A DNA stretch of 64,000 nt from Sandaracinus amylolyticus (GTDB lineage: Bacteria > Myxococcota_A > Polyangia > Polyangiales > Sandaracinaceae). The translations under genes were made by a program, and so were the position numbers. How positions within the stretch are numbered: the first letter of the stretch is position 1; the number at the start of each line of letters is the position of its first letter. The stretch is from NCBI RefSeq assembly GCF_000737325.1, contig NZ_CP011125.1, positions 8,990,001-9,054,000 of the forward strand, in the 5' to 3' direction. The notes below the pieces were generated by a model. That model was not told where the DNA came from. It saw nothing but the letters and a program-made list of their open reading frames with translations, and searched no databases. Shown piece after piece: positions 4,155-48,229 of the stretch.

Positions 4155-4570
4155 GGTTCACCGGCAACGCAACCGATGCGCCACGACGAATCGTGAATGG
4201 TTACGCGCGGATGTCCGCGAACGCGGCGGGGTTCCGAGACCCCGCGCCCGGGCCTCGCGCCCCCGGCTCGAAACAAATCGGCTCGCCCGCCGGCCCCTAC
4301 CGTCCGCGCGCTCCGCGCGCTCCCGTCCGGCACCGGCGGGACGAGCACTCCGGCACGACATCGGCTCGCCCGCCGGCCCCTACCGTCCGCGCGCTCCGCG
4401 CGCTCCCGTCCGGCACCGGCGGGACGAGCACTCCGGCACGACATCGGCTCGCCCGCCGGCCCCTACCGTCCGCGCGCTCCGCGCGCTCCCGTCCGGCACC
4501 GGCGGGACGAGCACTCCGGCACGACATCGGCTCGCCCGCCGGCCCCTACCGTCCGCGCGCTCCCGTAGGC
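4149..4570. other. Gene-free interval with hairpin and tandem repeats
   Basis: About 420 bp separate the DUF1592 start from the FIST stop. The first 130 bp hold a 7-bp GCGGGGT/ACCCCGC hairpin (4226-4245). The remainder is almost entirely the 83-bp tandem repeat listed separately. Reading frames through the repeats are low-complexity and repeat in step with the DNA unit, so no gene is called. Confidence 0.8.
4280..4566 (-). repeat. 83-bp tandem repeat, 3.5 copies, member of a dispersed hairpin family
   Basis: Near-identical units begin at 4280, 4363, 4446 and 4529 (period exactly 83); the last is cut short next to the FIST stop at 4571. Each unit contains, on the minus strand, a hairpin GCGCGC-GGA-GCGCGC flanked by GACGGGA and GGACGGTAGGG. 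Related single or partial copies occur near 15.93, 16.6 and 32.8 kb. The function is unknown. Confidence 0.92.
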
Positions 4571-39802: not shown

Positions 39803-42190
<2,388 letters not shown>

Positions 42191-42230
42191 GACGGCTGAC
42201 CGTAAGTTTCAACCCCGCGCTGTGAACCCC

Positions 42231-42250
42231 ACCGTACCGGTAGGAACGGT
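42231..42250. promoter_or_regulatory. Inverted repeat upstream of lon
   Basis: ACCGTACCGGTAGGAACGGT contains 5-bp outer arms (ACCGT/ACGGT) and the inner palindrome TACCGGTA. It lies 41-60 bp before the lon start. It may be a regulator site; no known operator consensus is matched. Confidence 0.3.
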
Positions 42251-42345
42251 GAAGAAACGTTGCGGGTGCGGGCGCGCGACCGGGCCCACGGGCCGGCAAC
42301 GATGGCGCGACGCGCGTGGTGCCGGTGGCGAGCGATGCAGAGGGC

Positions 42346-42645
42346 GCCGGTGACGCTCGGGGGCCGGCTGCGAGCGGTGCAGGGCCGCGCCGGTGACGCT
42401 CGGGGGCCGGCTGCGAGCGGTGCAGGGGCGCGCCGGTGACGCTCGCGGAGCCCGTTGCAAACCTTCCACAGCGCGTCGGCGACACCCGCGGAGCCCGTTG
42501 CAAGCGTTGCAGGGCGCGCCGGCGACGCTCGCGGAGCCCGCTGCAAGCGTCCGAGAGCGCGCCGCGACGCTCGCGGAGCCCGTTGCAAGCGTCCGAGCGC
42601 GCGTCGGCGACGCGCGGGGAGCCCCTTGCAAGCGTTGCAACGGGC
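42346..42645. repeat. 43-bp tandem array, about 7 degenerate units
   Basis: Units start at 42346, 42389, 42432, 42475, 42518, 42561 and 42603 (period 43, one unit of 42). Later units share GCCGGCGACGCTCGCGGAG and CCCGTTGCAAGCG. The array sits downstream of the TPR-C39 gene. It is not a CRISPR: there are no constant repeats with unique spacers. Confidence 0.88.
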
Positions 42646-42747
42646 TCCCCCGACGTCACCGGGAGCAACTTCGACCGTTCGATCGGGCTCCGCGACCCTC
42701 ACGGCGGCGCCGCGCAAGGCCCAGCTCGCCTCCCCGAAGTCCGCGTC

Positions 42748-45700
42748 TCAGGTCGACACGGCGCGCGCGGCGCGCGCGATCTCCGCGAGCCGTCCCCACA
42801 GCGGCGCGCTCGGATCGCGATGGAGGTCCGGCTGCACACGCGCCCACTCGAGGCGCGCCTCGTCGCCCCCGAGTGCCGCGCGCAGCGCGACGACCAGCGG
42901 GAACGTGTCCTCCGCGAACCCGCGCGCGACGAGCCGCGAGTACGCCGCATGCGCGTGCTTCGCCGCGAGCTCGCGATCTCCGCGCACCAGCGCGACCAGA
43001 CCTGCCGCCTCGTGCTCGGCCACCCAGGGCTGCCATCCGCGCGCGCCGCGTCGCGCCGCGTGCTGCGCCTCGTCGAGGCGGTCGACCATCAGCAGCTCGA
43101 CCGCGAGCATCGACCACCCCGCGAGCGAGTGGGGGAAGCGCTCGGTCGCGATCTGCGCCGCCTCGATCGCCGCCTCGTGCGCGCCTTCCGACGCGCGGAG
43201 TCGCGCGCGCGTGATCCACGTCTCGGCGCGATCCTCGCCCAGCATCGCGATCGCCTCGCGCGCCGCGCGCACGAGCTCGGCATGACGCACGTGGTGCGCG
43301 GTGCTGATCGACGCGACGAGCAGCTTCGGGTTGCGCTCGTGCGCGATCAGCGCGTCGAACGCCGCGCGATCTCCGCTCACCGCGCGGCTGCCCGCGAGCA
43401 CCGCGTACGCCCAGGTGCGGTCGTAGTGCACCGCGCGCGGATCGCCCTCGAGCCGCGCGAGACGTGCGTCGACGAGCGGGCGCAGCTCGTCCCATCCATC
43501 CGTCGACGCGATCAGGATCGTGCGCGCCGATGCGTCGTCCGCGGGCAGCCGCGCGTCGATCTCGCGCACCACGTCGAAGCGCCCGAGCGATCCCGCGAAC
43601 GCGAGCTGCGCGCGCAGCTCGCTCGAGCTCGGATCGAGCGCGTCCTTCGCCTCGCGATCGCGCAGCACGATGCGATTGCGCAGCTCCTGACCGCTCCATC
43701 CGAGCTGACCCTCGAACGGCGCGAGCACGTCGCTCGCCTCGTCCCAGCGCCGCACCTCGACCAGCTGCGCCGCACGATCGAGCTCGACGTACGCGTCCTT
43801 CGCGCCGGGCGCTCTCGCGAGCAGCGCGATCGCACCGTCCGCGTCGTCGCGCCCCTTCAGCGTCGCGAGACAACGACGTGCCCACGCGTACGTCGGCGAG
43901 CCCTGCACCGCCTTCTCGAAGAGCGCGATCGCCTGTGCGTCGTCGTCGTCCTGCCCGACGACACGCGCCGCGAGCTGCGCGCAGGCGTACGGCGAGTCCG
44001 GGCTCTGCGCGTGGAAGTCGTGCAGCACCTCGAGCAATCGCGCGTGGCGATCCGCGCGCTCGAGCACGTCGAACAGCACGCCCAGCATGCCCACGGTGGG
44101 GCGCGCCATCGCGAAGCGCTCCGCGTACTCGACCTCGCGCTCGGTGTCGCCCGCGTCGTGGAGGATCGCGGTCAGCGTGCGCAGCAGATCGACCGGCTCG
44201 TCCTGCGCGATCTCGAGCCCCGCGACGAGCAGATCGACCGCCTCTTGGATGCGCCCGCGCTCCTCGAGCATCTGCGCGGCGCGCCAGCGCGGCTCGAACC
44301 AGAGCGGCGCCTCGCGCGACAGGCGCGACACGATCTCGAGCGCCTCGTCGCGCTGCGCGTCGTCGCGATCGGTCGAGAGCATCTGCGCGAGGTGGATCGC
44401 GCCGTACGTGTAGCGCGGCGAGATCTCCATGCACTTGCGCGCGAGCGTGATCGCCTCGTCGCGCTTGCCGAGCTTCTCCGCGATCTTCGACGCCGTCATC
44501 CAGTTGAACGGGTTGTTCGGCGCCATCACCCGCGCGCACCGCGAGAGGTGCTCGGCGAGCTCGATCGCGCCGCCCTCGAGCGCGTGCGACGCGAAGTTCT
44601 CGGTCGCGCGCGCGTGCGTCGGATCGATCGTGAGCGTCTTCCAGAACGCCGCGTCCGCGTCGGCGCGTCGCTTCATGCTCATGTGGCACTCGGCGATGTC
44701 CTGCGCGTTGTTCGAGTCGCCGGGGTCGAGGCGCAGCGCCTCCTCGAGCTCGATGAGCGCCTCTTCCCAGCGCCCCTCGTCCATCAGGTACCAGCCGTGG
44801 ATCTGATGCGGCCACTCCTGGTCGTGATAACGAACGCGCGCCTCGCGCAGCGCCGCGAGGAAGCGCGCGAGGTTCGTCTGCGCGCGGTACTGCGCGAAGT
44901 GCCGGAAGAGCGCGTGGGTGCGCCGATTCCAGGCGAGCGGGTAGTCGCGCTCGAGCGCGATCGCGCGATCGCAGCGCCGCAGGATCTCCTCGGGGTCGCG
45001 CTCGACGTCCGGCGTCGCGCACGAGTCGATGATCCGGATGTGCTCGGCGTCCTTCACCCCCGCGGCATCGAGCGCCGCGATCGCCTTCTCGTCGCCGGCC
45101 CGGAACGCGACGATCGCCGCGTTGCGATAGAGCTTCCCGAGCGAGCCCTGGGTGTGGATCAGGCGCTCCGACGTGACGTGCGTCATCGGGTCCTGCACGA
45201 AGAGCAGCCCGAGCTCCTCGTCGACGCCGATCATCACCGCGACGTGGCTCGTCGTGGAGTACTCCTCCTCGACGATCACCGGCAATCCGAGCTCGAGGCA
45301 CGCGCGGAAGCGCGACGCGTCGCCCTCGAAGCGGCGCGTCACGAGCCCGTGCGACTCGAGGTACGTCGTCATCGCGTGGAGCGTCGATCCACGATCGCCC
45401 TTCACCTCGGGCGCGATGCGATCCTGATCGACGTCGATGCCCAGCGAGCGCAGCACCAGCTCGAGCGAAGCGGGCCCGCAGTAGTTGCGCTTCTGCTGCA
45501 CCGTCGGGAACGCCGGGAGCATCACGCGCTTGCGCTCGCCCGCCGCGCCGCGCTCGAGGTGGTTCAGCACCTCGCGCGCGAAGCGCCCTTCCCCGTCGTC
45601 CGCGTCCTCGCGCCACAGCGCGCGATAGACCTCGGCGCCCTCCTCGCGACGACCGAGCGCGAACAGCGCGCTCGCACGATCGAGCTGATCACGACGGCGA

Positions 45701-46365
45701 TGCGCGCCCCCCGGCGTGACCTCGAGGATGCGCGCGACGTGATCGAGGAACCCCTGCCAGTCACCGCGCACCCGGTCGACGTCGGCGCGCAGCCGCAGCG
45801 CGGCCACCCGATGGCGCGGCGCATCGACGAGCGATCCCAGCGTGCTCAGCGCGGCGTCGAAGCGCCCGCACACGTAGTGCACGCGCGCGAGCAGCATCTG
45901 CGCGCTCTCGGGCTCCTCGAGGCGCGTGCCCTCTTCGGCGCGCGCCAGCGCTTCGTCGCGATGATCGAAGCGCAGCGCGACCCACGAGAGCGCGGTCGCC
46001 CACACGCTGCCCTCGGGCCACGCGACGCGCGCGTGCTCGACCTCCTCGCGCGCGAGCGCCTCGCAGCGCTTCGCGACGAACGAGTACGCGATCTCGGTGT
46101 GCAGCCGCGCGCGCACCTTCGGGTCCTCGGCGCGCACGAGCTGGGCGCGCGCGTCGATCGCGATGCGATCCACCGGCTCACCCGCGAGCAGCCGGCACCG
46201 CAGCGAGCGCAGCACCGCGCGCCCCCACAGCGCCGGTGGCAGCGCGGCCAGCGAGCCGAGCGAGGTGATCTTCTGGCTCGCCTGCGCGTACCGCTCGGCG
46301 CCGAGATCGGCGTCGACCGCGTCGAGGATCTGCTCGGGTGTCATCGTCATGGCGTTCGATTCCAT
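42748..46365 (-). CDS. TPR protein with an embedded C39-like cysteine-protease domain
   Basis: A 1205-residue protein. Residues 1-280 are TPR-like helices. A papain-fold/peptidase C39-like domain follows (about 285-400), with a candidate triad of Cys296 (KRNYCGPASL), His374 (TTSHVAVMIG) and Asp392 (FVQDP). The remaining 800 residues are about 16 TPRs. No signal or TM is seen. ATG 46365 overlaps the upstream gene stop (TGATG), and GGAGGGG lies 5-6 nt before it. The unusual layout, a protease in the middle of a TPR scaffold, suggests processing of a peptide or protein held by the repeats. The domain call is a motif-based inference; function is unknown. Confidence 0.83.
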   Translation of the reverse strand: MESNAMTMTPEQILDAVDADLGAERYAQASQKITSLGSLAALPPALWGRAVLRSLRCRLLAGEPVDRIAIDARAQLVRAEDPKVRARLHTEIAYSFVAKRCEALAREEVEHARVAWPEGSVWATALSWVALRFDHRDEALARAEEGTRLEEPESAQMLLARVHYVCGRFDAALSTLGSLVDAPRHRVAALRLRADVDRVRGDWQGFLDHVARILEVTPGGAHRRRDQLDRASALFALGRREEGAEVYRALWREDADDGEGRFAREVLNHLERGAAGERKRVMLPAFPTVQQKRNYCGPASLELVLRSLGIDVDQDRIAPEVKGDRGSTLHAMTTYLESHGLVTRRFEGDASRFRACLELGLPVIVEEEYSTTSHVAVMIGVDEELGLLFVQDPMTHVTSERLIHTQGSLGKLYRNAAIVAFRAGDEKAIAALDAAGVKDAEHIRIIDSCATPDVERDPEEILRRCDRAIALERDYPLAWNRRTHALFRHFAQYRAQTNLARFLAALREARVRYHDQEWPHQIHGWYLMDEGRWEEALIELEEALRLDPGDSNNAQDIAECHMSMKRRADADAAFWKTLTIDPTHARATENFASHALEGGAIELAEHLSRCARVMAPNNPFNWMTASKIAEKLGKRDEAITLARKCMEISPRYTYGAIHLAQMLSTDRDDAQRDEALEIVSRLSREAPLWFEPRWRAAQMLEERGRIQEAVDLLVAGLEIAQDEPVDLLRTLTAILHDAGDTEREVEYAERFAMARPTVGMLGVLFDVLERADRHARLLEVLHDFHAQSPDSPYACAQLAARVVGQDDDDAQAIALFEKAVQGSPTYAWARRCLATLKGRDDADGAIALLARAPGAKDAYVELDRAAQLVEVRRWDEASDVLAPFEGQLGWSGQELRNRIVLRDREAKDALDPSSSELRAQLAFAGSLGRFDVVREIDARLPADDASARTILIASTDGWDELRPLVDARLARLEGDPRAVHYDRTWAYAVLAGSRAVSGDRAAFDALIAHERNPKLLVASISTAHHVRHAELVRAAREAIAMLGEDRAETWITRARLRASEGAHEAAIEAAQIATERFPHSLAGWSMLAVELLMVDRLDEAQHAARRGARGWQPWVAEHEAAGLVALVRGDRELAAKHAHAAYSRLVARGFAEDTFPLVVALRAALGGDEARLEWARVQPDLHRDPSAPLWGRLAEIARAARAVST

Positions 46366-46889
46366 CACATCCCCTCCACACGCGCGCCGCCCGTCCGCTG
46401 CACCGCGCCCTGAATGACCGCGCCCTGCACCACCACGTGCGAGCTCGCGCCCGCGACGATCGCGGCGGTCGCTCCGGTGTACGAGCCTCCGTCGAGGATC
46501 ACCTCGGCGTTGCCCCCGACCTGGAGCGCGATCGGCGCGCTCACGTTCACGCCATGAAGCGTCATCCGGCAGTTGCCCATCGCGGAGATCGCGGGGCTCG
46601 CGCCGAGCGTCGCGGTGACGGGCGTGACGTCGAGCACCTGGTTGCCCGCGCACACGAGCGGCCCGGTGCCGTCCCAGATCGCCGTCGCTTCGATGTTGCC
46701 GATGCCGCCGGCCCAGGGATCGGAGCTCGCGCGGTAGAGCTGCCACGCGACGTACCCGCCGACGCCGGAGAGGATGCACCCCGCGAGGCCGACGCCGAAC
46801 GCGGTGATGAAGCACCCGGTCATCGCCTGCGAGGCCTTCTGTTCGGCGCGCCGCTGCGCGCGATGCTGGAGCTGCTCGAAGGGGTTCAT
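46365..46889 (-). CDS. Membrane protein with beta-solenoid-like repeats
   Basis: A 174-residue protein. A basic, Gln-rich head (residues 1-20) leads into one TM segment (about 24-48) and then a small beta-repeat domain rich in Val, Gly and Ala (ALQVGGNAEVILDGGSYTGATAAIVAGASSHVVVQ). This resembles a short right-handed beta-helix. It is the first gene of the pair; its TGA overlaps the ATG of the TPR-C39 gene. The tight coupling implies a shared pathway, perhaps as membrane anchor or substrate for the protease. No family was recognised. Confidence 0.75.
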   Translation of the reverse strand: MNPFEQLQHRAQRRAEQKASQAMTGCFITAFGVGLAGCILSGVGGYVAWQLYRASSDPWAGGIGNIEATAIWDGTGPLVCAGNQVLDVTPVTATLGASPAISAMGNCRMTLHGVNVSAPIALQVGGNAEVILDGGSYTGATAAIVAGASSHVVVQGAVIQGAVQRTGGARVEGM

Positions 46890-47032
46890 CGTGGGCCCCG
46901 GCTCGGAGCAACCCGCGCACCGCGCGCGAGCCCCACGTTTGTCGGCTGTTCCGCTGCGACCGAACGTGCTGGGGCCGCACGCTCGCGCAGGAGTTGCGCG
47001 ACGCGTCCGCGCGAGCCGGGTGGGACGGGTTC

Positions 47033-47160
47033 GTCCCTGTTCGTGGGACCTCGGGCCGGCACCAGGAGCCGATTTGTCCCTATTCGCGGTACCTCGAGCC
47101 GGCACCGGAGCCGGTTTGTCCCTGTTCGCGGTATCGGCTCGTGGCGCCCGGAGGCGATCA
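47033..47160. repeat. 43-bp tandem array, 3 units (TTTGTCCCTGTTCG type)
   Basis: Units start at 47033, 47076 and 47118 (periods 43 and 42). Shared parts are GTCCCTGTTCGCGG and CCGGCACCGGAGCCGG. It lies directly before the longer 43-bp array. Confidence 0.75.
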
Positions 47161-47174
47161 CGATCGGCAGCGGA

Positions 47175-47519
47175 CGCCACCGCCCGGCACCCGACGCCGA
47201 TCACGATCACCGCCCGACGCCACCGCCCGGCGCCCGACGCCGATCACGATCACCGGCCGACGCCACCGCCCGGCGCCCGCCGCCGATCGCGATCACCGGC
47301 CGACGCCACCGCCCGGCGCCCGACGCCGATCACGATCACCGCCCGACGCCACGGCCCGGCTCCCGCCGCCGATCACGATCACCGGCCGACGCCACCGCCC
47401 GGCACCCGCCGCCGATCACGATCACCGCCCGACGCCACCCGCCGGCGCCCGCCGCCGATCACGATCGCCGCCCGCTGCCCCCGCGTGGCACCCGACGCCG
47501 ATGACGATCACCCGCCCGA
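47175..47519. repeat. 43-bp tandem array, 8 units (CGCCACCGCCCGGC type)
   Basis: Units start at 47175, 47218, 47261, 47304, 47347, 47390, 47433 and about 47476, with a strict period of 43 apart from a small end deviation. Each contains GCCGATCACGATCACCG. The array ends about 10 bp from the stop of the next gene. It is different in sequence from the two other 43-bp arrays. Confidence 0.92.
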
Positions 47520-47530
47520 CGCGACCGCGC

Positions 47531-48229
47531 TCAGCTCGCCTCGCAGAGCGGCGCGCGCGGCGCGCACTCGTTCTCGACGCACGAGAAGCTCGCGCACTCG
47601 AGCGACGACTGGCACTCCGCGCCGTCCTCCCGCGAGCGCGTGCACACCGGCGGCTCGGCGCGGACGTCGCAGAAGAGGCCCGTCGCACAGACCGTCGAGG
47701 CCCCGCATGCGTCGCCCTCGCCCGCGATCGCGCGGCAGGTGCCGAGCGCGTCCGCGTTGATCGCGGTGCACGAGCGGCTCTCGCAGTCGAAGAGCGTCGA
47801 GCAGGCGCCGCCATCGGCGACCCGCGCCTGGAAGACTCCGTCGCACTGCGAGACCAGCACCGAGCCGGTCACCATCGCGCGGAAGTCCTCGCACGACTGC
47901 TCCTCGAAGCCCTCGAGGCACGAGGCCGCGAGCGCCCCGTCGTAGTCGACGCGCCCGGCGTCGATGCTGGTGGCGAGCGTCTCGAACACGGTCCCCAGCG
48001 ATGCATCGAAGTACGCGATGCACTCCTCGGTGGTGCTCGGCGTGGGGGACGCGACCCCGAAGAAGCCCGCGCGAGAGTCCGCGTCGCAGCAGTCGAAGAG
48101 CCGCGTGCAGAGCCAGCGCGATCCCTCGGCGCCGTACTCCTGGACCGAGATCGGAGCCGGGTCGTTGTCGCAACCAAGCGCGGCGATGAGGACGAAGGGA
48201 GCGAGCCAGCGTGTGTCGTGGATGTTCAT
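47531..48229 (-). CDS. Cysteine-rich lipoprotein
   Basis: A 232-residue lipoprotein (lipobox AALGC, Cys near 20). The mature region has about 18 Cys, many in pairs of the form GACSTLFDCESRSC and ECASFSCVENEC, typical of secreted, disulphide-stabilised myxobacterial proteins. ATG 48229 begins the signal peptide. No family was recognised, but the Cys spacing resembles the repeat modules of secreted Dickkopf-like/EGF-type proteins. Its stop abuts the 43-bp array. Confidence 0.8.
   Translation of the reverse strand: MNIHDTRWLAPFVLIAALGCDNDPAPISVQEYGAEGSRWLCTRLFDCCDADSRAGFFGVASPTPSTTEECIAYFDASLGTVFETLATSIDAGRVDYDGALAASCLEGFEEQSCEDFRAMVTGSVLVSQCDGVFQARVADGGACSTLFDCESRSCTAINADALGTCRAIAGEGDACGASTVCATGLFCDVRAEPPVCTRSREDGAECQSSLECASFSCVENECAPRAPLCEAS

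Follow-up and report, generated by a model that had tools for sequence, protein, structure and literature searches.

Intergenic tandem arrays with a conserved unit length of 41-43 bp and a mostly unconserved sequence in Sandaracinus amylolyticus

The closest described parallels to the arrays reported here are the REP/BIME elements, whose GTAG- and CGTC-tagged families are intergenic, often palindromic and can be tandem (PMC3733652). REP sites are found mostly between genes that converge or run in the same direction, frequently directly after a stop codon, and roles in supercoiling, termination and transcript stability have been proposed for them (PMC3733652). The 41-43 bp arrays of Sandaracinus amylolyticus are likewise found at gene 3' ends with a bias to convergent genes. 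REPs, however, keep a family consensus with its GTAG or CGTC tag and vary their spacing, whereas the arrays described here conserve unit length and, for the most part, not sequence. We did not assign the arrays to REP, as they have no common consensus (of 39 units, 14 are singletons and the others belong to several families) and a whole-genome search with PF01797, in which positive controls were detected, found no RAYT (Y1_Tnp) gene.

Minisatellites (VNTRs) resemble the arrays in being built of tandem units (10-100 bp) that can expand, contract and become homogenised, in having decayed copies at their edges, and in a copy number or presence that varies between relatives, here between S. amylolyticus and a sister species. 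They differ in that the present arrays cluster at a unit length of 41-43 bp over unrelated loci, favour convergent genes and carry self-complementary units. CRISPR loci are also intergenic arrays of regular period; here, in contrast, the whole 43-bp unit repeats, there are no unique spacers and the unit sequence varies along the array. The genome paper speaks of CRISPR and of insertion elements and nowhere of tandem repeats (PMC5010890), and our literature search found no description of 41-43 bp arrays of this kind.

We analysed a window of 64,000 nucleotides of S. amylolyticus DNA (contig NZ_CP011125.1, positions 8,990,001 to 9,054,000). It holds three arrays, which are listed here with the neighbouring genes in window positions.

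42331..42639, no strand: array 1, 7.2 units of 43 bp (occasionally 42), 82% matches (TRF)
47028..47133, no strand: array 2, about 2.5-3 units of 42/43 bp, 85% matches (TRF)
47143..47528, no strand: array 3, 9.0 units of 43 bp, 87% matches (TRF)
39803..42190, minus strand: Lon protease gene (Pfam Lon_C, E 6.6e-91), downstream neighbour of array 1
42748..46350, minus strand: gene for a TPR and C39-peptidase-like protein (Pfam TPR and Peptidase_C39_2), between both array sites
46365..46889, minus strand: small protein gene (ORF and coding score), which shares an operon with the TPR gene and lies upstream of it
47531..48229, minus strand: gene whose stop codon abuts array 3 (ORF and coding score)

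The initial annotation had described three period-43 arrays with unrelated units. TRF bore out their existence at coordinates within ~30 bp of those first given, a 43-base layout displayed the occasional 42-bp units, and the mutual similarity of units 1, 2 and 3 was no higher than that of shuffled units (p = 0.49, 0.21 and 0.54). Shuffled copies of both intergenic regions yielded no array with a score of at least 100 in 200 trials. Array 1 sits in the gap that separates the TPR-C39 gene, whose stop is at 42748, from lon, which starts at 42190; both genes are on the minus strand. Array 3 adjoins array 2, with which it shares one 43-bp lattice in the 43-base layout, and finishes 2 bp short of the stop codon of 47531..48229, the next gene upstream. 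Every gene neighbouring the arrays is oriented on the minus strand, and neither 46365..46889 nor 47531..48229 has a Pfam match. The arrays are intergenic and their period of 43 is not divisible by 3, which makes them noncoding. An Rfam search of the window gave no match above the gathering score, and a scan of 42000-47700 for intrinsic terminators found none in the arrays; it returned two overlapping sites, both within the TPR gene (44835-44849).

Repeat periods were surveyed over the genome, a single contig of 10,327,335 bp, in 60 evenly spaced 20-kb stretches, together with 19 stretches of the sister genome G002 and its orthologous locus. Another 20 stretches of the S. amylolyticus genome formed a held-out set. 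About 16% of the genome was sampled, leaving 84% unsampled, and genes were called with our own codon-pair model (88% coding). Among the noncoding arrays with units of 35-65 bp in the spread sample, 20 of 27 had units of 41-43 bp (eight of 41, five of 42 and seven of 43 bp, with seven of all other lengths), and no other unit length came near that count. The held-out stretches gave 4 of 9 (one of 41, one of 42, two of 43 and five of other lengths). Against a flat distribution, which is a crude null, these counts have p values of ~2e-15 and 0.007, respectively; period alone was tested on held-out sequence, and several of the statistics were chosen after seeing the data. Lag analysis of noncoding DNA, which is independent of TRF, likewise peaks at 41-43 bp with echoes at 84 and 126, and multiples (84 and 122-130 bp) also occur among the noncoding arrays. 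Arrays in coding regions display no 41-43 peak (two of 42 and six of 45 bp), although 42 is a multiple of 3. Other periods in the genome are 45-54, 63 and 78-96 bp. The ~20 sites in the 1.6 Mb sampled from S. amylolyticus extrapolate to ~130 sites per genome. A tandem-repeat survey had been proposed as the check on an excess at 43; run on this sample, it reveals an excess near 43 and no broad flat spread, but the excess covers 41-43 bp and not 43 alone. Together the data show a class of intergenic tandem arrays with a conserved unit length of 41-43 bp, close to 4 x 10.5 bp or about four turns of B-DNA, and a sequence that is mostly not conserved.

The arrays are biased to gaps between convergent genes. 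Both flanking genes could be called at 26 sites, of which 13 are convergent, nine codirectional and four divergent; per 10 kb of array-free gap this gives 3.94, 0.83 and 0.60 sites, respectively, a convergent excess with p = 5e-5. The six arrays recruited by similarity comprise three convergent, three codirectional and no divergent cases, and codirectional arrays have no consistent closeness to the stop codon (nearer in five of nine). Noncoding arrays with 20-22 bp units lie in convergent gaps in 9 of 25 cases. Convergent gaps may just be best at tolerating junk DNA, which would count against a functional reading.

We found no universal motif across the 39 units, and no 8-mer occurs in more than six of them; units that do group form clusters of 11, 5, 3 and 2 members. 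Relatives of array 1 occur at four other sites of the genome (E down to 2e-23) and also in G002. For array 3 we found a relative at G000 2467241-2467610 (period 43, 8.7 copies, E 2.5e-53), and a 41-bp array matches it more weakly. Array 2 gave a single match in three genomes of the genus, with no similar sequence elsewhere in the genus. The relatives of arrays 1 and 3 elsewhere in the genome make the original statement that the common period does not reflect common descent too strong. Judged from these matches, descent and dispersal account for part of the common period, and not for all of it on present evidence. At two other loci (L024 10950-11420 and L030 13400-13760) the unit sequence switches abruptly inside one lattice with the register kept, and at L030 a 21-bp half unit is exchanged for another 21-bp sequence.

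We compared units with dinucleotide-shuffled versions of themselves and found self-complementarity at p <= 0.1 in 58% (mean z 2.5); random intergenic 42-mers reach this level in 5% of cases (mean z ~0), and noncoding arrays of other periods are intermediate at 33%. Array 2 is partly self-complementary (p = 0.05). In the clear cases (L025, L030, L109 and the second half of L024) two palindromes, identified by eye, alternate ~21 bp apart; this spacing is not independent evidence, because a palindromic tandem repeat has by symmetry a second dyad half a period away. Folding was better than that of column-scrambled copies (z below -1) for 24 of 34 arrays. In the window, the RNA fold of arrays 1 and 2 is no better than that of column-scrambled copies, and array 3 folds better than scrambled on the minus strand only, which is the direction of transcription. 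Compensatory evolution was not upheld: within arrays, 22 substitutions compensate and 144 break pairs, against 11.0 +/- 3.0 compensating in permutations, a weak excess among changes that are mostly breaking.

Purine/pyrimidine power at four cycles per unit exceeds 5 in 10 of 39 arrays, where 0.26 are expected; the arrays with ~10.5 bp purine phasing are partly one family and not ten independent cases. Over 42331-42720, array 1 has a purine periodicity of ~10.7 bp with a power of 30, and its single consensus unit scores 3.4. Arrays 2 and 3 carry no 10.5 bp purine/pyrimidine signal. Self-complementarity and 10.5 bp phasing are each missing from many arrays. A dinucleotide roll model gave a power at 10-11 bp equal to that of scrambled controls; it thus lends no support to static bending, and we discarded static curvature as an explanation. 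Three convergent gaps (L165 12006-12247, L052 9780-10206 and L027 185-506) hold 20-21 bp tandem units with the same ~10.5 bp phasing and no unit of at least 35 bp; possibly these are a half-length version of the class.

Comparison with G002, a genome of the same genus with 93-97% DNA identity around the locus, demonstrates that arrays turn over quickly between species. In place of the ~540 bp of arrays 2 and 3, G002 has ~20 bp, and at the site of array 1 (L101 7360-7810) it has a small lipoprotein-like ORF, identified by eye. The TPR-C39 protein is 96% identical there and its operon is kept without any array. This rules out the bracketing of the operon, which had been singled out as a feature of the locus, as meaningful; comparable sites exist genome-wide, and the arrangement is incidental. 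At other sites we worked out flank-to-flank gaps by hand. The gap is shorter in G002 than in S. amylolyticus at L024 (~167 versus 558), L031 (661 versus 911) and L069 (~167 versus 582), similar at L030 (472 versus 517) and L058:4710 (~388 versus 402), and longer at L050, L051 and L180. At L058:4710, where the flanks are 93-97% identical, the same pair of stop codons encloses an array in each species, and the units differ, being 42 bp in one species and 41 bp in the other. Part of the unit is weakly alike in the two, so the site may still be an old array that was homogenised divergently. At L058:15836, S. amylolyticus has 5.8 units and G002 has ~2 degenerate units in the same lattice. Since orthologous sites can be empty, no single array is essential.

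We tentatively favour, with a probability of roughly 0.45, the reading that the arrays are REP/BIME-like structural elements that turn over quickly at gene 3' ends and whose unit length is held near four helical turns. We infer that the arrays have a function and that selection on helical phase, and not descent or the way arrays form, maintains their period. Arrays are gained, expanded, homogenised, lost or replaced quickly and survive chiefly at gene 3' ends, most of all between convergent genes, where tandem, often self-complementary and partly helically phased units would separate converging transcription units. They might act as hairpins in both transcripts and so end transcription from either side. 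Otherwise, in line with a proposal made for REP/BIME clusters, they might form a phased platform for gyrase or for a DNA protein that has little preference for sequence. A selected spacing of about four helical turns had already been suggested for the window. It gains from the genome-wide occurrence of the period with unrelated units, from a length near 4 x 10.5 bp and from the phasing of ten arrays and of the whole of array 1, and loses from the unphased arrays 2 and 3.

Alternatively, an old 42-bp satellite family could have spread and diverged in sequence beyond recognition, the period being inherited and not selected. The recognisable unit families fit such a history, as do the relatives of arrays 1 and 3, which have the same or a doubled period and in the case of array 1 extend to G002. 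However, more than a third of the units cluster with nothing, no 8-mer is common to the units as a whole, neighbouring sub-arrays change sequence within one lattice, and one orthologous site has different units of 42 and 41 bp between the same stop codons. Singleton units and orthologous replacement thus disfavour descent alone, and we regard it as somewhat unlikely. A replication or repair process of this lineage might instead duplicate segments of ~42 bp, which would be functionless and survive in the least constrained DNA, such as convergent gaps. Rapid turnover, empty sites and the preference for promoterless gaps are what such a process would leave behind, but repeats in coding DNA lack an excess at 42 bp though the frame permits it, and a pure length bias accounts for neither self-complementarity nor purine phasing. 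The missing coding peak and this extra structure make a purely mutational length quite unlikely. That these are ordinary bacterial minisatellites of broad period spread, gathered by chance or by detection, is highly improbable: such repeats are common in bacteria and periods outside 41-43 bp do occur in this genome, but the concentration at 41-43 bp holds in both the spread and held-out samples, and the assembly is a single contig.

A bolder version of the structural reading, which we consider rather unlikely, is that the class is defined by length and helical phase: independent arrays would converge on a four-turn unit as trans-acting, DNA-structuring machinery between convergent genes selects spacing and ignores letters. 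Most repeated elements are recognised by sequence; in this class it is the length of the unit that is conserved, accompanied by a bias in location and by partial helical phasing, and consensus-based repeat searches could miss such a class. If selection does see spacing, the arrays would be a natural, testable case of an intergenic element in bacteria whose heritable feature is helical phase, and would offer a handle on how large GC-rich genomes keep converging transcription apart.

Other genera were sampled thinly. Genome contigs searched with the Lon protein gave one locus (L181), without an array of this kind. The genome G007 (L130) has a single array with a 40-41 bp period, and in a genome of another family of the same order (L153 548-907) an intergenic 87-bp array is composed of 43 + 44 bp units (2 x 43.5). 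These single arrays hint at a wider spread of the class. We set aside 42-bp arrays in G005 (L132), as 42 is a multiple of 3 and their three copies look coding.

The window also holds a perfect 83-bp tandem repeat (4277-4563, 3.5 copies, 100%). It belongs to a different, dispersed and sequence-conserved family of 78-96 bp units with GC-rich hairpins, which was seen at ~9 sampled sites in both Sandaracinus genomes, often within ~20 bp of a stop codon.
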